DNA of 64,000 nucleotides from SAR324 cluster bacterium (lineage in GTDB: Bacteria > SAR324 > NAC60-12), in the NCBI GenBank assembly GCA_015231825.1, contig JADGAV010000012.1, positions 1 through 64,000 of the forward strand, written 5' to 3'. Below are positions 9,479 through 24,140 of the stretch, piece by piece (the first letter of the stretch is position 1; the number at the start of each line of letters is the position of its first letter). The notes beneath the pieces are model-generated. The model saw only the letters and a list, made by a program, of their open reading frames with translations. It was not told where the DNA came from and did not search any database. The position numbers and the translations under genes are program-made.

Positions 9479-10315
9479 ATGGTTAAAACACTTGTATCAG
9501 GCAAATGGCTTGAAGCGCATCTCAATGATCCCGATATCAGGATACTCGAAGTATCATCAGAGTTGGATGACAAAACTTACCGTGAAGGGCACATTCCCGG
9601 AGCAGTCCGCTGGTTTTGGAAAGAAAAATGTTGGCATGCAAGTGACCGGCAATTTATCACTCCTCAGGAAACTGCAGAACATCTGGGCCAGATAGGAGTG
9701 AGTCCCAGCACACAATTGGTGATCTATGGCGATCCTGTCCAATATGGGACCTACGCTTACTGGGCCTTGACCATGGGAGGTCATAGTCACCTCCATCTAC
9801 TGGATGGCAGCCGAAAAAAATGGATCAAAGAAGGGCGTCCCCTGACACGCAATATCCCCAGATTTGACCCGGTCAAATACAAACCTGGCAAGGCAGATTT
9901 ATCTATGCGCCTGGGCAGGGACGATGTCCGTGCCAAGCTTGGCAAGGCAGGACGAATGCTGATTGATGCTCGGTCTCCAGAAGAATACAGCGGGCAACGT
10001 GTAATGGAAATTGGAAAATTTGATCATGGTGCCGAACGAACCGGACGGATTCCTGGAGCGGTTCATCTTTTTTTTAAAGAACTGCTCAACGATGACGATT
10101 CTTATAAATCTCCGCAGGAACTCCAGGCGGTATTCGATTCTGTGGGAGCGAATCCGAAAAAAATTGACGAAATAGTGGTTTATTGCCGGTTGAGTCATCG
10201 GGCGACTTTTCTTTGGGTTGGATTGACGCAGATTCTGGGATACAAAAACGTTAAGATTTATGATGGATCCTGGACAGAATGGGGCAGTATTGTCGGTTTT
10301 CCAATAGAGAGATGA
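9479..10315 (+). CDS. Sulfurtransferase (two-domain rhodanese)
   Basis: A thiosulfate/3-mercaptopyruvate-type sulfurtransferase of 278 aa that moves sulfane sulfur through a cysteine persulfide. Two rhodanese domains are present: an inactive N-terminal one (about 5-125, with GHIPGAVRW) and a catalytic C-terminal one (about 145-275, with GRIPGAVHLFF). The catalytic cysteine is C236, in the loop CRLSHRA; the commoner thiosulfate type has CRIGERS, so charge and shape of the active-site loop differ and the natural substrate is uncertain. GSWTEWG near the end is a family hallmark. AAGGAG sits about 12 nt before the ATG. The stop overlaps the recB start (ATGA), so translation is probably coupled. 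Confidence 0.9.
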   Translation: MVKTLVSGKWLEAHLNDPDIRILEVSSELDDKTYREGHIPGAVRWFWKEKCWHASDRQFITPQETAEHLGQIGVSPSTQLVIYGDPVQYGTYAYWALTMGGHSHLHLLDGSRKKWIKEGRPLTRNIPRFDPVKYKPGKADLSMRLGRDDVRAKLGKAGRMLIDARSPEEYSGQRVMEIGKFDHGAERTGRIPGAVHLFFKELLNDDDSYKSPQELQAVFDSVGANPKKIDEIVVYCRLSHRATFLWVGLTQILGYKNVKIYDGSWTEWGSIVGFPIER

Positions 10316-13300
10316 AAAAAGAATTCGATTTAATAAAAAGCCCCCTTGAAGGGGTCAGTTTGATCGAAGCAAGTGCAGGAACAGGAAAAACCTTTACGAT
10401 TGTCGGCGTGTTTCTGCGCCTTCTCCTCGAAAAACAGGTCCCTATCGAAAAAATTCTGGTCGTGACGTTTACAGAAGCAGCGACTGCAGAACTGAAACAA
10501 CGGGTTGGAGAAAAAATCCGAGAGGCTTTCGATGCATTTCAGACAGGAAAAACGGAAGATCCGTTCCTTCTGCATTTGCTAAACAATTTTAGCAGCCATC
10601 ACCAGGCCCTGCAGCATCTGAAAAATGCACTTCATCTTTTTGACGAAGCTTGTATTTATACCATCCATGGATTCTGTCAGAAGATGCTGACGGATTTTGC
10701 TTTTGACACCGGATCTCTTTTTGATTCAGAATTGATTCCCAATCAAGACCCTCTGCTGGAAGAACTGGCAATGGACTATTGGCGGAATTTGATTTACAAC
10801 GCGTCAGAAGAAGATACCCGTCTGCTGCTCAGGCATTGTCCCAATCCTGAGTATTTGAAGAAGACACTCAAAAAGATCATTTCCCGTCCCGAAATTCATT
10901 TTCTTCCTGCAACGCAAAAAAGCTCCGTTCAATTGATCAAGCAAATGAAGGCCCTTTTTCAAAAGATGAAACTGACATGGCTTGAATCGCAGGGAGAAAT
11001 TGCCACGCTTTTGGAAGAACACAAAATCTGGAGAAAAAACAATCTTTCAGATTACCTTTCTAAAGCAGAGCTCTATTTCCTGAATGATAATTTTTTCGAC
11101 AATCCGGAAATTCTTGACAAGTTTGCTGCCACCACTATCAGAGGCCGCATTAAGGAAAAGGCCGGACCGATCCATCTATTTTTTGACCAATGCGATGAAT
11201 TTTTGAAACTGGAGCGCACCCTTCCTCACGCGATTCGAATCAAATTTACTGAATGGGCGAAAACACAACTGAAGCAACGAAAAGAAACTCTGAACCAACG
11301 TTCCTACGACGATTTACTCCAGGATCTTGATCAGGCACTGACCGGAGCGGAAGGAGTTACTTTGGCGAAAAAGATCAGTACCCGGTATTCAGCCGCAATG
11401 ATTGATGAATTTCAAGACACCGACCCCACTCAATACGATATTTTCTGGAAGATTTTCTGCGACAGCAATTTATTTTTCATAGGAGACCCCAAGCAGTCCA
11501 TTTACAGTTTTCGTGGCGCCGATGTTTTCGCTTATCTGCAAGCACAAAAGGAAGCAAAAACACAATTCACTCTAGAAACAAACTGGCGTTCAGACTGCAA
11601 ACTGGTTGAAGCTGTCAATACAGCTTTTTCCTCGACAGAACATGCTTTTGCAAATGAAGAAATCAAATTTTTTCCTTCCAAAGGGGCCCCCGGCAAAGAG
11701 AATAGTTCGCTACAAATTGAAGGAGAGGTCTCCGTACCAATGCATTTCTGGTATCTGGAACATCAGGAAACCGTCAACATTCACAAGGCGCGACAGAAAA
11801 TTGCTGAAGGCACTGTTTCAGAAATCACACGTTTATTGAATTTGGGAGCACAGGGAAAAGCAAAAATAGTAAGTGAAGGAAAATCAAAACCGGTTGAACC
11901 TGGAGATATCGCAATCCTGACCCGCACCCACAGTCAAGCGGAACTGCTTGGAAAACTTCTCCAGCAAAAACATGTTCCCAGCGTGTTGAAAACCCAAATC
12001 AATATTTTTCAAACCGAAGAATTTAAAGATGTTCTGACGATTGCCCGGGCAATTTCTGAATTTTCCAATCCTTCTCTAGTCAAAGCGGCCCTGCTCAGCA
12101 ATATTTTGGGGTATAGCGGGACACTCATTTTTCAAATCATGGAACAGGAATTGAAATGGGAATCGATCATCCATGATTTTTTTGCTTACCGCGAAACTTG
12201 GAAAACAAATGGATTCTACCAGATGATGCGACTGCTGCTCAGAAAAGAAAAAGTTCGCACACGCCTGCTCGCCCGGCATGACGGTGAACGCCGATTGACC
12301 AATGTCCTGCATGTCATGGAATTGTTCCATCAGGAAGAAAACAGAAAGAAACTTGGCATGGCCGGATTGCTGCGGTGGGCTCAAGCCATTCAAAAAGATT
12401 TACCAGAGTCCCGGGACGAACACCTGATCCGGCTTGAGACTGACGCGGAAGCTTTGAAAATTCTTACCGTTCATGCCAGCAAAGGCCTGGAATTTCCCAT
12501 CGTATTCTGTCCCTTCCTCTGGGACGGCAACCACTCAACCGATACTTTATTTCACCATGAGAAAAAAGGGTTGATCTGGCATTTTGATGCTCAGGAAGCA
12601 GACAAGGAAGCAGCAAAAAAGGAAAGATTGTCCGAAGACATTCGTTTGGCATATGTTGCACTGACCCGAGCGAAGTATCGCTGTTACGCAACATGCTATG
12701 CTGCCTGGAAAAGCAGCCACTGGAGAAAAAGCTCCCCCCTGGCCCATCTTTTTTCAAGAGGAGCCACCTGGCAGCATCTGGAAATGCTGGCAAGCCGTTC
12801 ACATGGGAGCATTCTGGCAAAAATATTACCTTCCAGTGAAAATTCTGTTTTCAAGCCATCATCGACGAAAACAAAAGACCTGAATCTCAAGATATTCAAA
12901 CAATCGCTTAAACAAAATTGGGGGATTTCCAGTTTTAGCGGACTTTCCGGGCAACGGATAGCACACTCGGAAGAACCGGACCACGACCAGCACCTGAACT
13001 CCGATCCCCACGAAGAGGGCCGAGCGGATGAAGAAGAAAATATCTCAATCTCATCCATCTTTACCCTTCCCAAAGGAGCCAACACCGGGGTCTGTATTCA
13101 TGAAATTCTTGAAGAACTCGATTTTGGCGAAACCGATCAATCAAAAGTCAACAAGCTGGTACAGGAGAAACTGAAAAAGTACAATATCGACAGCAAATGG
13201 GAATCCGTTGTCTCACAGATGACAGAAGAGGTTCGGCAACAGAAGATCAATTCTGTCCATCTGCCAGGCCAATTTTTTACATTGAAAGATATTCCTCCGA

Positions 13301-13827
13301 ATCAGGTGCTTAAGGAGATGCCGTTTCATTTTCCAATTCAGCCGTTTCATACAGATGATATGGTGAAGACAGTCATCCAAAACCGACGTACAAAAAATCA
13401 CGACGCGCTGCTGTGCAGCTTACAATCTCTTAATTTTCAAGCCCTGCAGGGATTCATGAAAGGTTTTCTCGATTTGGTTTTCTGTTTTAAAGACCGCTAC
13501 TATATTTTGGACTGGAAAACAAATCATCTTGGCATGCATCCCGAAGACTATGCCGTAAAGCGTCTGAAAGCAAACATTGAGGCTCACGCATACAACCTTC
13601 AGTACATAATTTACAGCCTTGCCCTTCACAAATACCTGCGCATGCGATTGCCGGGATATGACTTCCATCATCATTTTGGGGGTGTATACTACTTTTTCGT
13701 CCGGGGACTTCAGTCTGGAACAGACAATCGCTATGGTGTCTACCATGACGGACTCCTTGACTCGAAAGAAATGATGGAACAACTGGAACTCTGCTTCAGC
13801 GGGGAAATGCATGATTTCAGAAGATAA
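10312..13827 (+). CDS. recB: RecBCD exonuclease V beta subunit (RecB)
   Basis: RecB is the 3'-5' SF1 helicase and nuclease of RecBCD. Walker A is ASAGTGKT at residues 20-27. Walker B/DEFQDTD and the GDPKQSIYSFRGAD motif follow near 370-405. Motifs V/VI (TVHASKGLEFP, YVALTRAK) are near 720-790. The C-terminal nuclease domain retains its metal ligands: D1054 in GFLDLVF and D1067/K1069 in DWKTN, matching the D-x12-D-x-K nuclease motif. Length is 1171 aa from this start (E. coli 1180). The ATG at 10312 overlaps the sulfurtransferase stop; a further in-frame ATG at 10279 lies inside that gene and is less likely. It overlaps recD by 17 bp. Confidence 0.94.
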   Translation: MKKEFDLIKSPLEGVSLIEASAGTGKTFTIVGVFLRLLLEKQVPIEKILVVTFTEAATAELKQRVGEKIREAFDAFQTGKTEDPFLLHLLNNFSSHHQALQHLKNALHLFDEACIYTIHGFCQKMLTDFAFDTGSLFDSELIPNQDPLLEELAMDYWRNLIYNASEEDTRLLLRHCPNPEYLKKTLKKIISRPEIHFLPATQKSSVQLIKQMKALFQKMKLTWLESQGEIATLLEEHKIWRKNNLSDYLSKAELYFLNDNFFDNPEILDKFAATTIRGRIKEKAGPIHLFFDQCDEFLKLERTLPHAIRIKFTEWAKTQLKQRKETLNQRSYDDLLQDLDQALTGAEGVTLAKKISTRYSAAMIDEFQDTDPTQYDIFWKIFCDSNLFFIGDPKQSIYSFRGADVFAYLQAQKEAKTQFTLETNWRSDCKLVEAVNTAFSSTEHAFANEEIKFFPSKGAPGKENSSLQIEGEVSVPMHFWYLEHQETVNIHKARQKIAEGTVSEITRLLNLGAQGKAKIVSEGKSKPVEPGDIAILTRTHSQAELLGKLLQQKHVPSVLKTQINIFQTEEFKDVLTIARAISEFSNPSLVKAALLSNILGYSGTLIFQIMEQELKWESIIHDFFAYRETWKTNGFYQMMRLLLRKEKVRTRLLARHDGERRLTNVLHVMELFHQEENRKKLGMAGLLRWAQAIQKDLPESRDEHLIRLETDAEALKILTVHASKGLEFPIVFCPFLWDGNHSTDTLFHHEKKGLIWHFDAQEADKEAAKKERLSEDIRLAYVALTRAKYRCYATCYAAWKSSHWRKSSPLAHLFSRGATWQHLEMLASRSHGSILAKILPSSENSVFKPSSTKTKDLNLKIFKQSLKQNWGISSFSGLSGQRIAHSEEPDHDQHLNSDPHEEGRADEEENISISSIFTLPKGANTGVCIHEILEELDFGETDQSKVNKLVQEKLKKYNIDSKWESVVSQMTEEVRQQKINSVHLPGQFFTLKDIPPNQVLKEMPFHFPIQPFHTDDMVKTVIQNRRTKNHDALLCSLQSLNFQALQGFMKGFLDLVFCFKDRYYILDWKTNHLGMHPEDYAVKRLKANIEAHAYNLQYIIYSLALHKYLRMRLPGYDFHHHFGGVYYFFVRGLQSGTDNRYGVYHDGLLDSKEMMEQLELCFSGEMHDFRR

Positions 13828-15610
13828 ACAAATATTCAGATCAGCAAATTACAATCCTTTGGATCATTATTTCGCATCGAGGTTGCTGCAGCTCGCCGAC
13901 AGTGAGAGTTTGGAACTATATCTGGCTGGTGGATTAACAAGTCACCAAGCATCTAAAGGCCATGTTTGCCTGGATCTGGAAAAATTCTGCAGTCAGAAGC
14001 TGGAGTGGCAGGATTCTCAGGATCAGCTTCAGTCGATGACCTTGCCCGGTCTGGAGGAATGGAAACAAAAATTGCAGAATGAATCGGTTGTCGGACTTCC
14101 AGAAGAAAACACGCCTCTGATCATAGATTCGCATCGGGGGCAAACTCTGCTTTATCTAAATCGATACTGGCACTATGAACAAAATCTGGCTTCTTCGATT
14201 CTTGATCGCGCGCAGCAGCCTGTGATCCTGGATGAAATTCTTCTGCAGGAAGGTTTGCAGCGGCTATTTCCTCCACAGAATCAAGAGAAAAACCTGCAGA
14301 GGTCCGCTGTGGAAATTGCTTTGCAGCACCAATTTTGTATTATCTCCGGTGGTCCGGGAACCGGAAAAACGAGTGTGGTGATCAAAATTTTATCACTACT
14401 GATTCAACAAGCCAAAGGCGCTGATATTCATATTGCGCTGACTGCTCCTACCGGCAAAGCCGCTGCCCGCCTGAAAGAGTCCGTCGTGAATGGGAAACAG
14501 GAACTGCTGAACTCCAATCACCTTTCCCGGGAAGAAGGTCAGCGTATTCCCGAATCTGCGTCCACTATTCATCGTCTGCTGGGAGTTCAGAAAAATTCTG
14601 TCTATTTTAAAAATAATCATGAACACCCACTTTCACTGGACTGTCTGGTCGTTGATGAAGCGTCCATGGTGGATTTAGCGTTAATGAGCAAACTGCTTGA
14701 TGCTTTACCCGCCAAAACCCGACTGATTCTGCTGGGAGACAAAAACCAGTTGTCTTCTGTGGAAGCTGGATCAGTGCTGGGAGACCTGTGTGAAGAATTC
14801 GAAGGGAAATCTGCTTCACTTGAACAATGCATAATACACTTGCAAAAAAGTCATCGCTTTGATGACACCAAAGGAGTGGGGCTTTTGAGTCGGGAGATCA
14901 ACCAAAATTCAGATCAGCGAGCATGGGAAATCCTCGAGAATAGAGACCGGGGTGTCACAAGAAATCCCCTTCCTGTTCCATCTGCTCTCAAGGAACGTCT
15001 AAAAAAGGAAGTGCTTGAAAAATACAGGTCCTATCTGGTTACGGTACATGGAAAAGATGCGGCGGCGGCGTTTAAAGCTTTTAAATCCTTCATGGTGCTC
15101 AGCGCGACGCGCCGGGGACTCTTCGGTTCGAACAATATCAATCGGGTCATAGAAAACCTATTAAGAGAGGAAAACCTGATCCCCCAAGAAACAGTTTGGT
15201 TTCCCGGCCGGCCGATCATGATAACCCGCAATGATTACAATCTGAATCTCTACAACGGCGACATTGGCATCATATTGACGGATCCGCAGGACAATCGGCT
15301 GAGAACTTTCTTTGAAAGCGACGGTGGATTTCGCCGAATCGCCCCTGCTCGACTTCCGGAACATGAAACTGTTTTCGCTATGACGATCCATAAAAGCCAG
15401 GGCTCTGAATTTGATGAAATCCTCCTGATTCTTCCTGAACCCGGGAGTGAACCCTTCGGTCGAGAATTAATCTACACCGGTGTAACTCGCAGTCGCAACG
15501 CCGTAAATATTTGGACAGAAGAAAAAATTTTCAAAAGCACAGTGCAAAAACGCTGTGAACGCAGCTCTGGTTTGAAAGATAAATTGCGCCTTGAAAAATT
15601 AACTTTTTAA
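13811..15610 (+). CDS. recD: RecBCD exonuclease V alpha subunit (RecD)
   Basis: RecD is the 5'-3' SF1B helicase that gives RecBCD processivity and full nuclease activity. Walker A GGPGTGKTS is near residue 180. LVVDEASMVD (motif II), LLGDKNQLSSVEAGSVLGDL (given by its ends LLGDKNQ and VLGDL, motif III) and the C-terminal AMTIHKSQGSEFDE and YTGVTRSR motifs (V/VI, about 515-560) are all intact. Length 599 aa equals the usual size (E. coli 608). The ATG at 13811 lies 17 bp inside recB, so the two are translationally coupled. This is the short RecBCD-type RecD, not the RecD2 type. Confidence 0.94.
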   Translation: MISEDKQIFRSANYNPLDHYFASRLLQLADSESLELYLAGGLTSHQASKGHVCLDLEKFCSQKLEWQDSQDQLQSMTLPGLEEWKQKLQNESVVGLPEENTPLIIDSHRGQTLLYLNRYWHYEQNLASSILDRAQQPVILDEILLQEGLQRLFPPQNQEKNLQRSAVEIALQHQFCIISGGPGTGKTSVVIKILSLLIQQAKGADIHIALTAPTGKAAARLKESVVNGKQELLNSNHLSREEGQRIPESASTIHRLLGVQKNSVYFKNNHEHPLSLDCLVVDEASMVDLALMSKLLDALPAKTRLILLGDKNQLSSVEAGSVLGDLCEEFEGKSASLEQCIIHLQKSHRFDDTKGVGLLSREINQNSDQRAWEILENRDRGVTRNPLPVPSALKERLKKEVLEKYRSYLVTVHGKDAAAAFKAFKSFMVLSATRRGLFGSNNINRVIENLLREENLIPQETVWFPGRPIMITRNDYNLNLYNGDIGIILTDPQDNRLRTFFESDGGFRRIAPARLPEHETVFAMTIHKSQGSEFDEILLILPEPGSEPFGRELIYTGVTRSRNAVNIWTEEKIFKSTVQKRCERSSGLKDKLRLEKLTF

Positions 15611-15823: not shown

Positions 15824-16654
15824 ATGATCAAAGTATTGTCAACAATCTTGCTGAGCAGTCTCCTTTGGACAGGATGCTCTTCTCATTCCCCAGATTTTAC
15901 GCTCTCAGCAAAGAATGACAGGCTCGCTGCAAGATACGTTGCACAGCTCGGTCCTTCCCCAACAGAAAATGACCAGGAGGACGACGATGATATTTTTGAA
16001 AACGAATTTGCTGATGAATTCGAAAATGAATTCGGTGAAGAAAAAGAATCGGAAATTTTTGATCCTTTGAGTGGTTACAACCGCCTGATGACCGACATTA
16101 ATGACACCATCTACATCTATGCCCTCAAACCGGTAGCCAGCGGTTATCAGGCCGTGATGCCGGAGATCGCCCGTCAGGGAATTTCTCGTTTTTTCAACAA
16201 CCTCCTTTTCCCGGTACGCTTTGTCAATAATATTTTACAGATGAAATTCAAAAATGCAGGAGAAGAGTTTGCGCGATTTGGGGTCAATACAACAATCGGT
16301 GTCCTCGGATTCGCTGACCCGGCAAAAGACTGGCTCGATCTCGATGCTCATCATGAAGATTTTGGACAGACTCTCGGATATTATGGGGTAGGAAGCGGCT
16401 TTCATATCGTACTGCCGATTCTCGGTCCCTCCAATCTTCGGGACAGCATCAGCCTGCTCCCGGATAGTGCCCTCGACCCGATCAGCTACATCGACCCATT
16501 TGAAACAGAAGTGGGAATCCGGGTATTTGACGCGGTCAACTCGACTTCGCTTCATCTTGGAGAATATGAAGCCATTAAAAAAGACGCCATTGATCTCTAC
16601 CCTTTTTTAAGAGATATCTATGAGCAAAACCGAAACAAAAAAATTGAGGAGTGA
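15824..16654 (+). CDS. mlaA: MlaA (VacJ) outer-membrane lipoprotein
   Basis: MlaA forms a ring in the inner leaflet of the outer membrane through which mislocalised phospholipids are moved. A signal peptide ends with a lipobox-like LWTGC, so C18 should be lipidated. The MlaA domain starts at about residue 80 with DPLSGYNRLMTDIND and contains KPVASGY, the RFFNNLLFPVRFVNN segment and GFADPAKDWL. Between the lipid anchor and the domain lies an unusual, very acidic stretch (about 45-78) of alternating Glu/Asp and Phe (ENEFADEFENEFGEE). That makes it longer than E. coli MlaA (251 aa). It is followed at once by mlaC and an RND gene; no MlaFEDB genes are nearby. Confidence 0.93.
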   Translation: MIKVLSTILLSSLLWTGCSSHSPDFTLSAKNDRLAARYVAQLGPSPTENDQEDDDDIFENEFADEFENEFGEEKESEIFDPLSGYNRLMTDINDTIYIYALKPVASGYQAVMPEIARQGISRFFNNLLFPVRFVNNILQMKFKNAGEEFARFGVNTTIGVLGFADPAKDWLDLDAHHEDFGQTLGYYGVGSGFHIVLPILGPSNLRDSISLLPDSALDPISYIDPFETEVGIRVFDAVNSTSLHLGEYEAIKKDAIDLYPFLRDIYEQNRNKKIEE

Positions 16655-16656
16655 CT

Positions 16657-17259
16657 ATGAAGATTTTAATCTACACGATTGCCTTTTTCTTTATGTTCAA
16701 TCAGCCGGCACTGGCGGATGAGAAATCGGAAGTTGCCGGCCTGGTGAAAGAAAAAATCGGCCTCGTCATCAAACTGCTGAAGGACAAAACGATTGATAAA
16801 AAAGAAAGGAATGAGCAGATTATTGCAGCAGTTCTGCCGATTCTCGATTTTGAGCTGATGGCGCAATTGAGTTTGGGGAAAACCAGCTGGCAGAGCATCA
16901 GTGAGGAACAGCAAAAGGAATTTACAGAACTTTTTGTAAAGCGTACTCAGGAATCATACCTGGAAAAATTAGACCTCTATAGTAACGAGGAAGTGGTCTA
17001 CAAAGACGCAACAATGGAAAAAAACCGGATTTTTGTAATGACAGAACTGGTATACAAAGGAGACAAAATTGAAATGCTCTACAAATTCTACAAATCAAAA
17101 GATGGCTGGAAAGGCTATGATGTGGAAATTCTCGGAGTCAGCATCATCCAGACCTATCGCTCCCAATTTAATGGAGTGATGAAAAAAGGCGGAATCGAGG
17201 AGCTTCTTAAAAAACTGAAAGTGACTGGGGAATTTGAAATTTCCACCGAAAAAAAATAG
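16657..17259 (+). CDS. mlaC: MlaC-like periplasmic phospholipid-binding protein (Ttg2D/HpnM family)
   Basis: A soluble periplasmic lipid shuttle of the MlaC/Tol-tolerance family, 200 aa. A signal peptide MKILIYTIAFFFMFNQPALA precedes the mature domain. Family features are the LPILDFELMAQLSLG segment (residues about 60-75), the FTELFVKRTQESYLEKL helix and the C-terminal GVSIIQTYRSQFNGVMKKGGIEELLKKL. GAGGAG lies 6 nt before the ATG at 16657, which is why I prefer it to the in-frame GTG at 16651 that overlaps the mlaA stop. Between mlaA and an RND pump, its likely job is carrying lipid between the pump and the MlaA complex. HpnM in hopanoid clusters is a relative, so the lipid might not be phospholipid. 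Confidence 0.9.
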   Translation: MKILIYTIAFFFMFNQPALADEKSEVAGLVKEKIGLVIKLLKDKTIDKKERNEQIIAAVLPILDFELMAQLSLGKTSWQSISEEQQKEFTELFVKRTQESYLEKLDLYSNEEVVYKDATMEKNRIFVMTELVYKGDKIEMLYKFYKSKDGWKGYDVEILGVSIIQTYRSQFNGVMKKGGIEELLKKLKVTGEFEISTEKK

Positions 17260-17280
17260 GTAACTCCATCAGGCAAAATA

Positions 17281-19770
17281 ATGCTCAGACAGTTTTATGA
17301 CAAACTTGTTTTAAAGTACCCGGTTTCAGTGGCAGTCATCCTTCTGATAACAATCGCTTCGTTAGGTTATCAGGCGAGGAAGCTCGAAGTGGATGCTTCT
17401 GCGGAAACGCTGGTACTGGAAGATGACGCAGACCTTCGCCTGACCAGGATAATCAACGAGCGATACGGAAGTCCGGATTTTCTGGTGATCACCTACAGCC
17501 CCCAAGAGGAGCTGCTCACAGAAAACACACTGAATCAGCTCAGGGGTCTTAAAAAAGACTTGCTCAGACTGCAAAGTGTCGAGTCGGTCATTTCAATACT
17601 GGATGTTCCACTTCTGGAAAGTCCGCCAAGACCGATTAAAGAACTGCTCAAAGCAGTTCCTACCCTCGAGTCAGCCGGAATCGACAAAAAACTGGCAAAA
17701 GAAGAATTTCTGAACAGCCCTATTTATCGGGACCTACTGGTCAGCCCCGACTTCAGAACAACTGCCATGCAGGTCAATCTGCACCAGGATGAAATTTATA
17801 AGGATCTGCTCAAACGACGGAATTTGCTGAAGCAAAAAGCAAAGGACGACACAATCACCCCTGGAGAAAAAACAGAATTGCTTGAGGTGCAAGCAGAGTT
17901 CAAAAAGCACCGGGACAAAATGCGTCTCATACAACATCAGACAATCCTTGATGTGCGTGCAATCCTCGACAATTATCGTGATGGAGGCAGACTTTTTCTC
18001 GGAGGCGTCAGTATGGTCGCCGATGACCTGGTCACTTATGTAAAGGACGACCTCAGGCTTTTTGGAATTGTGGTCTTTCTTTTTCTTATCATCACTCTCG
18101 GAATCATTTTCCGGCAACTCAGATGGATTCTTCTTCCAATCCTTTGCTGCAGTTTTTCAGTGCTTGCAACCTGTGGATTTCTTGGATTATTTGGATGGGA
18201 AGTGACGATAATTTCCTCAAATTTCATCTCTTTGCAGCTGATCATTACAATGGCAATTACGATCCACTTGATCGTTCGCTATCGTGAACTGATTCGCATC
18301 AATCCGGAAGCCGACCAACATCAGCTCGTGCTGGATACTGTTCTTGCCATGGCAAAACCATGTCTTTATACGACGTTGACCACGATTGCCGGTTTCAGTT
18401 CACTGGTACTGAGCGGCATTTTACCCGTGATCAACTTTGGCTGGATGATGAGCGTCGGAACAGGCATTTCTCTGCTCCTTACCTTTTTGATCTTTCCGGT
18501 TCTCGTAGTCATGCTGAAAAAGCTCCCGCCCAATGTTTCTTTCGAATCCAAATTTGCACTAACAAAACCCCTGGCCCAATTTACAGAGCAATATGGAAAA
18601 TGGATACTCTGGGTCAGCGCGGCAGTTCTGGTTGTCAGCATCATCGGAACGTCACGCTTGATGGTGGAAAACAGCTTTATTGACTACTTCAAAAAATCGA
18701 CAGAAATTTATCAGGGGATGAAAGTGATCGATCAGGAGCTAGGAGGAACCACCCCCTTTGAGGTGATCCTAGATTTTGAAGAAGAAGCCCTTCCTCAGGC
18801 AGCGGACGTCAAAGAGAACAAAGCAAAGGATGCATTTGATGCATTTGAGGAAGAATTTGCAGAGAGCAAAGACGAGCCAAAGTATTGGTTCACCAGCGAA
18901 AAAATGGAACAGATTTCTAAGGTGCATGACTACCTGGATAGGCTTCCGGAAACTGGCAAAGTGCTCTCATTGGCAACAATGCTCAAAGTTGGAAAAACTC
19001 TGAACAACGGAAAACCTCTCGATAATTTTCTCCTGGCTTTAATTTATAATGAGCTGCCGGAACGCTTCCGCAAAATTGTTCTCTCTCCATATGTTTCTGT
19101 TGAGAACAATCAAGTGCGATTTTCGGTCCTGGTCCGCGATTCAGAACCGAATCTGAGAAGAAATGAACTGTTGAAGCGGATCAAAAATGATCTGAAAAGC
19201 AAATTGGAATTGGAGGAGGATCGCTACCATTTAGTGGGCCTCCTGGTGCTTTACAACAACATGCTGCAAAGCCTGTTCAACTCTCAAATTCTGACTTTGG
19301 GAGCCGTGATCGGTGCATTGCTGATTATGTTCCTGATTCTTTTTCGTTCCCTCAAAATTTCTTTGATTGCTATTTTCCCGAACATTCTTTCGATCGGGAC
19401 AGTGCTTGGATTTATGGGTTGGGCCAAGATTCCTCTGGATATGATGACAATCACCATTGCCGCGATCAGCGTGGGGATTGCAGTGGACAACACAATCCAC
19501 TACATTCATCGTTTTATGAATGAATTTCCCAAAGATCGAAACTACATTGCAACAATGCACCGTTGTCACGGGAGTATCGGTTATGCAATGTATTATACAT
19601 CCATAACCATCATTATCGGTTTTTCAATTCTGGTGCTGTCTGCGTTCATTCCCACCATTTATTTCGGTCTACTGACGGGTTTGGCAATGATTATTGCTTT
19701 GATTGCCGCACTGACTCTGCTGCCGCAACTGATGGTCTTCCTCAAACCTCTTGGAGCTGAAGCAAAATAA
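17281..19770 (+). CDS. RND/MMPL-family exporter, probable lipid transporter
   Basis: An 829-residue RND-superfamily permease with two repeats. Each half has one membrane helix (about 17-35 and 440-460), a large periplasmic loop (about 36-250 and 461-655) and a block of five helices. The second half carries the proton-relay-type motif GIAVDNTIHYIHR in its helix bundle; the first half lacks the equivalent aspartate (ITMAITIHLIVRY). The second periplasmic loop contains an acidic insertion with KDAFDAFEEEFAES (about 517-530). It starts 21 nt after mlaC. HpnN, which moves hopanoids to the outer membrane, belongs to this superfamily and is paired with an MlaC-like HpnM. By analogy this pump may replace the MlaFEDB ABC complex; direction and substrate are inference. 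Confidence 0.85.
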   Translation: MLRQFYDKLVLKYPVSVAVILLITIASLGYQARKLEVDASAETLVLEDDADLRLTRIINERYGSPDFLVITYSPQEELLTENTLNQLRGLKKDLLRLQSVESVISILDVPLLESPPRPIKELLKAVPTLESAGIDKKLAKEEFLNSPIYRDLLVSPDFRTTAMQVNLHQDEIYKDLLKRRNLLKQKAKDDTITPGEKTELLEVQAEFKKHRDKMRLIQHQTILDVRAILDNYRDGGRLFLGGVSMVADDLVTYVKDDLRLFGIVVFLFLIITLGIIFRQLRWILLPILCCSFSVLATCGFLGLFGWEVTIISSNFISLQLIITMAITIHLIVRYRELIRINPEADQHQLVLDTVLAMAKPCLYTTLTTIAGFSSLVLSGILPVINFGWMMSVGTGISLLLTFLIFPVLVVMLKKLPPNVSFESKFALTKPLAQFTEQYGKWILWVSAAVLVVSIIGTSRLMVENSFIDYFKKSTEIYQGMKVIDQELGGTTPFEVILDFEEEALPQAADVKENKAKDAFDAFEEEFAESKDEPKYWFTSEKMEQISKVHDYLDRLPETGKVLSLATMLKVGKTLNNGKPLDNFLLALIYNELPERFRKIVLSPYVSVENNQVRFSVLVRDSEPNLRRNELLKRIKNDLKSKLELEEDRYHLVGLLVLYNNMLQSLFNSQILTLGAVIGALLIMFLILFRSLKISLIAIFPNILSIGTVLGFMGWAKIPLDMMTITIAAISVGIAVDNTIHYIHRFMNEFPKDRNYIATMHRCHGSIGYAMYYTSITIIIGFSILVLSAFIPTIYFGLLTGLAMIIALIAALTLLPQLMVFLKPLGAEAK

Positions 19771-21974: not shown

Positions 21975-23123
21975 ATGAAACAGTCCGCAAGCCTTTTTAC
22001 AAAAGATGAATTGCGTTTGTTTTATCAACAAGGGCTTATAATACTCTTTTTGATAGCAGCCGGATTGATTGCCACCACAGCAATTTTTGACCTGTCCGAC
22101 GGTGATCGCCGCCTAACCGCTCTTTTTTATTCATCTTCCAAGACATGGCTATTGACGGATTCTCAACCATGGAAATGGTTTTATGAATTCGGTACAATTC
22201 CAGGATTGCTGCTTACTATTTTTGGGGTAATAGTCTGGTTTCTCAGCTGGTTTAAACCGCAGTTGGCTTCATGGCGACGCTACATTTTAGTCTTTGTGCT
22301 GACTTCTGTTTTAGGAGGCGGAATTCTGGTAAACGGAATCTTGAAAGATTATTGGGGACGCACACGCCCCCGACAGATTCAGGAATTCGACGGTCGCTGG
22401 GAATACCTTCCTGTCTACAAGCCTGGAATTCCAGGAAAAGGAAAGTCCTTTCCCTGTGGACACTGCACCATGGCATTTCTCACGGTCAGCTCTGTTTTTC
22501 TTTTCAGAAAATCTAAAGCTCTGGCTGTTTCTGGCACCATATTCGGCCTGGTTTACGGTACTATGATGAGCGTCGCGCGGGTAGGGCAAGGAGGACATTT
22601 CCCCACAGACACTTTGTGGGCCCTGGGCATCGTCCTGCTGGCCTCCACGACGCTATATTTTTTTGTATTAAAACCTCCCCTTGAGCGTTCTGTTTCCTCC
22701 AAGAATCTGACAAGAACGCAAACAATTGGCATGTCCTTTGGATTTCTTGTCGTCATTGCCCTCATGCTCCTGTTATTTTTAACTCGCCGCCCCGTATTTG
22801 AGGACCATAAGCACGGGCTTTCTCTGGAGGGAATAAAACAGATTGAGGTGAGAGTGAATTTTGACTGGCAGAATATCACCCTTGTACCCACACAAAGAGA
22901 AAGCGGTTCAATTCAAACGATCGTGCGCGGATTCGGGTTGCCTGATGCCAGAAACAGGATTAAAATTGAACGGACAAAGGGAAACAACGGAGTTTTTTAT
23001 CTCAACTACCAACTGATTTCGGAAGGTTATTTTTCTGAACTCAATTACGACGTTTTTCTGGTAGTCCCTTCCCACCTAATGGATCGTGTGATACAAATTC
23101 CAAACGCAAAATCAGATTTGTAG
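21975..23123 (+). CDS. PAP2-family membrane phosphatase with C-terminal beta-rich domain
   Basis: A 382-residue membrane phosphatase of the PAP2 superfamily, likely acting on a lipid phosphate on the periplasmic face. The three motifs are KDYWGRTRPR (about 119-128), FPCGHCTMAF (about 158-167) and SVARVGQGGHFPTD (about 196-209). Motif 2 has Cys in place of the usual Ser of PSGH; the catalytic histidines are kept. About six membrane helices occupy residues 20-275. After the last helix a roughly 105-residue tail (about 275-382) of alternating hydrophobic strands resembles a DUF4097-like beta domain and should be periplasmic. It begins immediately after the preceding stop and is followed by a second PAP2 gene. 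Confidence 0.85.
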   Translation: MKQSASLFTKDELRLFYQQGLIILFLIAAGLIATTAIFDLSDGDRRLTALFYSSSKTWLLTDSQPWKWFYEFGTIPGLLLTIFGVIVWFLSWFKPQLASWRRYILVFVLTSVLGGGILVNGILKDYWGRTRPRQIQEFDGRWEYLPVYKPGIPGKGKSFPCGHCTMAFLTVSSVFLFRKSKALAVSGTIFGLVYGTMMSVARVGQGGHFPTDTLWALGIVLLASTTLYFFVLKPPLERSVSSKNLTRTQTIGMSFGFLVVIALMLLLFLTRRPVFEDHKHGLSLEGIKQIEVRVNFDWQNITLVPTQRESGSIQTIVRGFGLPDARNRIKIERTKGNNGVFYLNYQLISEGYFSELNYDVFLVVPSHLMDRVIQIPNAKSDL

Positions 23124-23165: not shown

Positions 23166-24140
23166 ATGCCTTTTTTAAAAAAGCAGGTTTCATGGGGGCT
23201 GGTTCTTCTAATCAGCCTCAGTGCGGTATTATTGATTGCAATTGTACCTGTGGATTACGAATGGACGGTTTGGCTCTATGAAAACCGCTGGCCAAGATTT
23301 GCCGAATTCATGAGACGAACCCTCTTTGAAGGAAGCTATTTTGGTGGTAGCGATTTCGCCATCCTTTTTCAGATTTTTGCTGTATGCGCTTATTTCTATG
23401 TAGGGAGCGGAAAAAAAGGTGCAAAACGTTTCGTGCAATGGCATCCCATGTTGGGGTATTTGCTCGTTTGTGCTCTGGTGACCGGTCTGGGTGCGGTACA
23501 TTCATCAAAATGGTTGATGGGCCGGGCGAGACCTCATATCGTATTGAAAGATGAATTGCCTTTCACTCATTGGTACGAATTTGGTCCGCATTTCGTTAGC
23601 GACGGTGCCTTTTTTGGAAGTTTTCTCAGTGGGCACACCGCTGTCGTTTTTTTATTGATGGCGGTGGCTTATCTGTTGGCTGGGCATCCGCAGTCTGCCT
23701 GGAAGTATAAAACAATGGGGGGGCTCTGGGGAGGACTCGTTATCATATATACAATTCTAATGGCCATCGGACGCTCCATGACTCGCCATCACTGGCTAAG
23801 TGACAGCCTCGCCACTATAGGCGTTTCCTGGATTGTGATGCACTTTTTATATTTTCAGATCCTTCATATTCCAGAACAAATCGACTACTGGAATCGTCAC
23901 CGAAAATGGCCTCCCTTGCCTAAATTCTGGGAATTCCGTTTGTGCTTCCATGCGCTGATGATTATTCTAGGTTTGATGGGAATGGTAATTGGACTGCGGT
24001 CTCTCTGGCTTCAAAAGGCACCTTGGCTAATCATACTGATTTTTCCGGGGATAGCGGCAGTATATCACTGGGGAAAGCAGATTTTTGCACTGTACGGGCA
24101 AGTCAAAAAAGTTTTCACTTTCAATCCTGATCTTCAATAA
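23166..24140 (+). CDS. PAP2-family membrane phosphatase
   Basis: A second PAP2 phosphatase, 324 aa. Motif 1 is KWLMGRARPH (about 114-123), motif 2 FLSGHTAVVF (about 154-163) and motif 3 GRSMTRHHWLSD (about 201-212), all with the catalytic residues intact. Five to six membrane helices surround them. Two further helices follow near residues 255-300, giving a longer C-terminus than typical lipid A or undecaprenyl-pyrophosphate phosphatases. It is only distantly related to the neighbouring PAP2 protein, so this is probably not a recent duplication. The next gene starts 8 bp later. Confidence 0.85.
   Translation: MPFLKKQVSWGLVLLISLSAVLLIAIVPVDYEWTVWLYENRWPRFAEFMRRTLFEGSYFGGSDFAILFQIFAVCAYFYVGSGKKGAKRFVQWHPMLGYLLVCALVTGLGAVHSSKWLMGRARPHIVLKDELPFTHWYEFGPHFVSDGAFFGSFLSGHTAVVFLLMAVAYLLAGHPQSAWKYKTMGGLWGGLVIIYTILMAIGRSMTRHHWLSDSLATIGVSWIVMHFLYFQILHIPEQIDYWNRHRKWPPLPKFWEFRLCFHALMIILGLMGMVIGLRSLWLQKAPWLIILIFPGIAAVYHWGKQIFALYGQVKKVFTFNPDLQ

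Follow-up and report, generated by a model that had tools for sequence, protein, structure and literature searches.

The mlaA-mlaC-RND operon

The stretch of DNA analyzed here (the window, 64,000 nucleotides from a SAR324 cluster bacterium, contig JADGAV010000012.1) carries an operon that joins mlaA and mlaC to a gene for a large transporter of the resistance-nodulation-division (RND) superfamily. The three genes lie consecutively on the plus strand, as a first-pass annotation of the window had placed and named them, and all score far above their Pfam cut-offs. mlaA (15824–16654) encodes an outer-membrane phospholipid lipoprotein of the VacJ/MlaA family with 276 amino acids (PF04333, E = 8.4e-70, 234.8 bits against a cut-off of 25). 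Read from the open reading frame, its N-terminus is a lipoprotein-type signal peptide ending in Cys, followed by an acidic linker and the MlaA domain (residues 79–272). mlaC (16657–17259) encodes a periplasmic lipid carrier of 200 amino acids, whose sole Pfam family is PF05494 (E = 5.4e-40, 137.3 bits against a cut-off of 26) and whose signal peptide is MKILIYTIAFFFMFNQPALA. Relatives of this carrier are present in the PDB, and it aligns over its full length with E. coli MlaC, including the GVS motif. The third gene (17281–19770) encodes an RND/MMPL transporter of 829 amino acids that exceeds the PF03176 cut-off in two stretches (E = 4.5e-30, 105.2 bits against 20.5) and has periplasmic loops at residues ~35–242 and 458–653.

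The first-pass annotation had mlaC start at a GTG overlapping the end of mlaA. Such a codon does overlap the mlaA stop (16651, giving 202 amino acids), but the ATG at 16657 is the likelier start, because a GAGGAG ribosome-binding site precedes it and its Met opens the conserved "MK" of several homologs. With this start, mlaA and mlaC are separated by 2 nucleotides, and the previously noted gap of 21 nucleotides between mlaC and the RND gene stands. The three genes form a tight operon. A search for promoters and terminators at the operon gave no pattern clearly above the expectation from shuffled sequences, and a search for viral relatives of MlaC confirmed none.

Distribution in SAR324

We searched 34 SAR324 genomes, all at least 85% complete, with MlaC, MlaE, mammalian cell entry (MCE) and RND queries. 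MlaC was present in 25 of them, in a single copy each, and an orthologous RND (at least 61% identity) was found in all 25 of these and in none of the nine others. The RND gene was adjacent to mlaC in each of the 24 MlaC loci fetched from other SAR324 genomes, and MlaA was in view at 23, the remaining locus being cut short.

The unit and MCE proteins are close to mutually exclusive. MlaE was found in only 4 of the 25 MlaC genomes (this one, designated G000, and G071, G073 and G076) versus 7 of the 9 genomes without MlaC, and MCE proteins in the same four versus 8 of 9, so that 21 of the 25 MlaC genomes carry neither. Counted by genome and uncorrected for kinship, the Fisher p value is 0.0002 for MCE and 0.0017 for MlaE; counted by genus, again uncorrected for the species tree, it is 0.008. 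Among the 15 genomes with a completeness of 90% or more and a contamination of 5% or less, MCE is present in three and absent from eight with MlaC, versus present in all four without it (p = 0.026). Since the MCE query (PF02470) should also detect PqiB- and LetB-type proteins, the genomes with the mlaA-mlaC-RND unit alone seem to lack an MCE system of any kind; a three-MCE protein was recovered in G071. One genome, G056, lacks every one of these parts; it is probably incomplete.

Genera of a single family show all three states (both systems, the ATP-binding cassette (ABC) system only and the RND unit only), and at least two families include both states, which requires more than one switch. The most parsimonious history places both systems in the ancestor, as in the present genome, with reciprocal loss thereafter, a pattern that two systems able to cover for each other would give. 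The proposal of the first-pass annotation, that an RND pump takes the place of the Mla ABC complex, describes the system well: in most relatives the unit occurs without any MCE/ABC lipid transporter, although the present genome has both.

Recurrence across phyla

In a scan with the RND protein, using one genome per species, we considered the best 80 of 105 relatives, each representing one locus. The gene order of the window was found at 43 of the 80 loci, in several phyla, and the order mlaC-RND-mlaA at five, all in Desulfobacterales-like genomes; two more have mlaC-RND, with mlaA lying elsewhere or beyond the end of the sequence. This arrangement is far beyond chance. The hosts of the RND relatives are SAR324, Desulfuromonadales and other former Deltaproteobacteria, Nitrospirota, Campylobacterota (Sulfurimonas, Arcobacteraceae and Campylobacteraceae), Lentisphaerota and one anammox planctomycete; the operon itself recurs in Desulfuromonadales, Nitrospirota, Lentisphaerota and Campylobacterota, the last with the order mlaA-mlaC-RND. 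At 41 loci, the distances between loci correlate for MlaA and MlaC (Mantel 0.72), MlaA and RND (0.68) and MlaC and RND (0.76), none of 2000 permutations being as high, indicating that the three genes mostly travelled together. Beside its mlaC-RND pair, the anammox planctomycete has a further mlaA-mlaC pair, which is divergent and encoded on the other strand (L057:4879–6555, minus strand).

RND genes without these partners fall in three clades of a quick tree built with no outgroup. Their neighbors have the appearance of unrelated household genes, and no substitute partner was evident by eye, no family search having been made. In one alphaproteobacterial group, a partnerless RND gene lies directly behind an open reading frame that looks SbmA/BacA-like by eye (L066:6961–7986, with equivalents in L065, L068, L069, L072, L073 and L075).

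A separate MCE/ABC set in the same genome

The assembly (5.8 Mb, 81 contigs, 93.5% complete) contains exactly one MlaA and one MlaC, both in the window operon. It also contains one MlaE and one MCE protein, encoded side by side with an ABC ATPase on another contig (C81). This locus comprises a STAS-MlaE fusion of 363 amino acids, an MlaF-type ATPase of 255 amino acids (both the STAS part and the ATPase being named from sequence and position, without a curated model) and an MCE protein of 649 amino acids (L004:9209–11158). The genome hence encodes an MCE/ABC transporter, while its only carrier and outer-membrane lipoprotein of the Mla families are those of the operon. The first-pass annotation had seen no MlaF, MlaE, MlaD or MlaB gene nearby, which holds for the window neighbors that were read but not for the genome. 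It had also named two observations that together would speak against its proposal: that mlaFEDB is fully encoded elsewhere, and that the three genes do not consistently occur together in related genomes. The former is roughly true of this genome, and the latter is contradicted by the loci described above.

The MCE protein is far longer than those of three relatives with the same neighboring gene (open frames of 379, 381 and 451 amino acids), and its tail is long, repetitive and helical-looking. Contamination was rejected as the source of this locus, as its GC fraction is 0.433, compared with 0.439 in the window. The same HflC-like neighbor (named by eye) in three relatives also argues against a foreign origin.

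Around the operon, RecB-like (by eye) and RecD-like (RecD_N by Pfam) helicase genes lie directly upstream (10279–15610), and two consecutive genes for membrane proteins resembling PAP2-type lipid phosphatases by eye (21975–23123 and 23166–24140) lie ~2–3 kb downstream.

Fold and membrane residues of the RND transporter

The RND protein falls below the MMPL/ActII subfamily cut-off (96 of 875 bits, NCBIfam). Its AlphaFold2 model (pLDDT 85.4, pTM 0.79) has a lipid-transporter-like fold: the best Foldseek matches were MmpL4 and MmpL5 (TM-score 0.67 by query), and MmpL3, NPC1-type and HpnN structures were also similar (TM-scores of ~0.6–0.7 by query, 12–15% identity). In a second structural comparison (Z of ~42–45), drug pumps and SecDF scored alike, which means that the fold match is to the superfamily.

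In the RND alignment, each of the 78 rows with data has an Asp in transmembrane helix 10 (TM10; Asp736), while none of 81 rows has one in TM4. His329 (81/81), His740 and His763 (78/78 each) are also invariant. Judging from these residues, if protons drive the transporter, the relay would sit in its second half. Aligned with the window protein (residues 310–336 and 725–763), HpnN shows the reverse, having its Asp in TM4 and lacking one in TM10.

A putative MCE-independent phospholipid shuttle

We propose that MlaA, MlaC and the RND probably form one phospholipid shuttle that is independent of MCE/ABC transporters, with the RND rather than MlaFEDB as the inner-membrane partner and most likely driven by protons. 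MlaA would be the outer-membrane pore for phospholipids passing between the outer leaflet and the periplasm, and MlaC would ferry single lipids across the periplasm, docking on the periplasmic domains of the RND to exchange its phospholipid there. The RND would thus serve as the site at the inner membrane where MlaC is unloaded (or loaded), with the proton gradient as the most likely source of power. That close relatives usually keep one system or the other would be explained by this unit doing the job of the MCE/ABC systems. The genomic argument is strong, and the mechanism is what we infer from it.

Several points weigh against this proposal. The co-occurrence and exclusion statistics are uncorrected for the species tree, the genomes are drafts of 85–99% completeness, and this genome and three others of the 25 with MlaC carry both systems. 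At 30 of the 80 RND loci, neither mlaA nor mlaC is adjacent (at seven of these, the sequence upstream is shorter than 2 kb), so the RND can also occur independently of them. As TM4 is without the Asp of HpnN and MmpL3, proton coupling is not certain. Beyond the phylum survey, MlaE is present in 28 of 43 genomes from several phyla with mlaC beside the RND gene, and absent from 15; six of the 43 are shared with the 34 SAR324 genomes, and the completeness of the 43 is not given. Outside SAR324, both systems commonly coexist, and where they do, the single MlaC may also serve the ABC/MCE complex. On the supporting side, exactly one MlaC was found in 41 of the 43, the others having one neighboring divergent pair and one fragment.

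These coexisting systems support a different arrangement, in which one MlaC visits two inner-membrane stations: MlaA-MlaC would hand lipid in the retrograde direction to MlaFED where it is present, while the RND would export lipid onto MlaC, making a two-way shuttle. The frequency of MlaE in these genomes (28 of 43 across phyla, 4 of 25 in SAR324), nearly all with a single MlaC, would fit, as would the outward transport by MmpL3 and HpnN. So would Campylobacter jejuni, whose separate mlaA-mlaC and mlaEFD clusters are treated as one pathway in the available text of PMC6549495. We nonetheless consider it unlikely, as in the 21 SAR324 MlaC genomes with neither MlaE nor MCE the RND alone must suffice. 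Moreover, the MCE protein of the present genome is elongated. According to the accessible part of PMC10665443, elongated MlaD with a barrel tends to be found in genomes without MlaA and MlaC; this would apply here if the protein has a barrel.

An exporter of the HpnM/HpnN or BstABC kind, in which the RND would load hopanoids or another special lipid, not a phospholipid, onto the MlaC-like carrier for the outer membrane, appears improbable. HpnM is the best curated MlaC-like match of the carrier (TIGR03481, 73.7 bits), and the RND matches HpnN both by family (TIGR03480, 109.3 bits; NF052374, 89.3 bits) and as its best PDB sequence match (6wu0, E = 2e-14), but these scores are far below the cut-offs of 160.1, 751.85 and 1100 bits. 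Squalene-hopene cyclase (PF13243) was found in none of the 34 SAR324 genomes, this one included (2 of 14 controls were positive). HpnM/HpnN identity was hence rejected, and of the parallel drawn by the first-pass annotation the architecture is what stands. The unit also contains a true MlaA, and no lipid-synthesis gene was recognized directly beside the window operon, the neighbors at other mlaA-mlaC-RND loci not having been annotated. It is very improbable that the RND has no functional tie to the two other proteins, being an efflux or envelope protein with only a promoter in common with mlaA-mlaC, while MlaC partners something else. The three clades of RNDs without adjacent MlaA or MlaC would suit such an explanation, which is opposed by the perfect co-occurrence of MlaC and RND in 34 genomes, by the conservation of the unit across phyla even when reordered, as in the five Desulfobacterales-like loci, and by the missing MCE partner in most SAR324 MlaC genomes.

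If the MlaA-MlaC-RND shuttle operates as proposed, we slightly favor retrograde over outward transport, because the unit replaces MCE systems and because E. coli MlaA opens to the outer leaflet and takes part in retrograde transport. Outward transport is also supported, since MmpL3 and HpnN, relatives of the RND, move lipids outward. Our more far-reaching suggestion is tentative: a proton-driven MlaA-MlaC-RND unit might be a complete stand-in for MCE/ABC transporters, in which case outer-membrane lipid homeostasis would be MCE-free across SAR324 and probably in part of the Nitrospirota and Campylobacterota, and the unit could transport outward.

Significance

Which way Mla transport runs is a matter of long-standing dispute. 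In a naturally occurring variant that uses a different motor, the source of energy and the direction of transport can be told apart and tested. The movement of phospholipids between the membranes is largely ascribed to MCE proteins, and in a survey of 1,083 genomes MlaEFD was described as the ancestral core, to which MlaABC was added late; an RND is not mentioned in its available passages (PMC10665443). Genomes that keep MlaA and MlaC without the MCE core suggest that the shuttle half can run on another motor. Among the papers listed in the searches, which did not cover subscription papers and some preprints, none was found that joins an RND/MMPL gene to MlaA-MlaC, as judged by titles, abstracts and passages; the split between mlaA-mlaC and mlaEFD in C. 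jejuni was already known. The unit occurs in Campylobacterota, and mlaA mutants of C. jejuni overproduce vesicles, as stated in the accessible text of PMC6549495, which makes the neighboring RND gene an immediate and neglected candidate.

Comparison with known systems

The operon shares MlaA and MlaC families with the Mla system of E. coli (MlaA-MlaC-MlaFEDB), but its inner-membrane protein is an RND, MlaFEDB is not part of it, and most SAR324 MlaC relatives occur without MlaE or an MCE protein. Both MlaA and MlaC of the window miss the E. coli-type equivalog cut-offs (32.5 of 195 bits for MlaC). The MlaD-docking residues of E. coli MlaC do not decide which partner MlaC has here, since MlaA and MlaD use the same cleft on MlaC, as described in the available parts of PMC10245069 and PMC11289387.

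The Campylobacterota loci found here have mlaA and mlaC followed by the RND gene, and in C. jejuni, where mlaA-mlaC likewise lie together and apart from mlaEFD, Cj1373, encoded next to cj1372, is probably this RND, judging from the other Campylobacterota loci. The accessible text of PMC11955535 describes Cj1373 as an integral membrane protein. In that of PMC6549495, where mlaA-mlaC (cj1371-cj1372) and mlaEFD (cj1646-cj1648) make up one ABC-driven pathway, neither an RND nor cj1373 is mentioned.

HpnM/HpnN resembles the unit in pairing an MlaC-like carrier with an RND lipid transporter; the unit described here differs in including MlaA and in that the conserved membrane Asp lies in TM10, where HpnN has it in TM4. 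A trio of RND, periplasmic binder and outer-membrane-associated protein is also found in the sterol transporter BstABC of Methylococcus (PMC10942540, as far as available), in which, however, BstB is a phosphonate-type binder (PF12974) and BstC belongs to another family, in place of MlaC and MlaA; the window carrier, with MlaC as its only Pfam family, did not match PF12974. Mpc of Brucella is a further hybrid; it lacks MlaC, and its lipoprotein resembles PqiC, not MlaA, according to the accessible part of PMC12436622.

Like the present unit, the trans-envelope MlaEFD of Veillonella, with its elongated MlaD, is an alternative to the six-part E. coli Mla system, and the long MCE proteins (open frames) of the SAR324 genomes without MlaC resemble it. 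As far as the available literature describes it, it is the mirror image of the window system: Veillonella keeps the ABC/MCE core without MlaA and MlaC, whereas the window system keeps MlaA and MlaC and drops the core.

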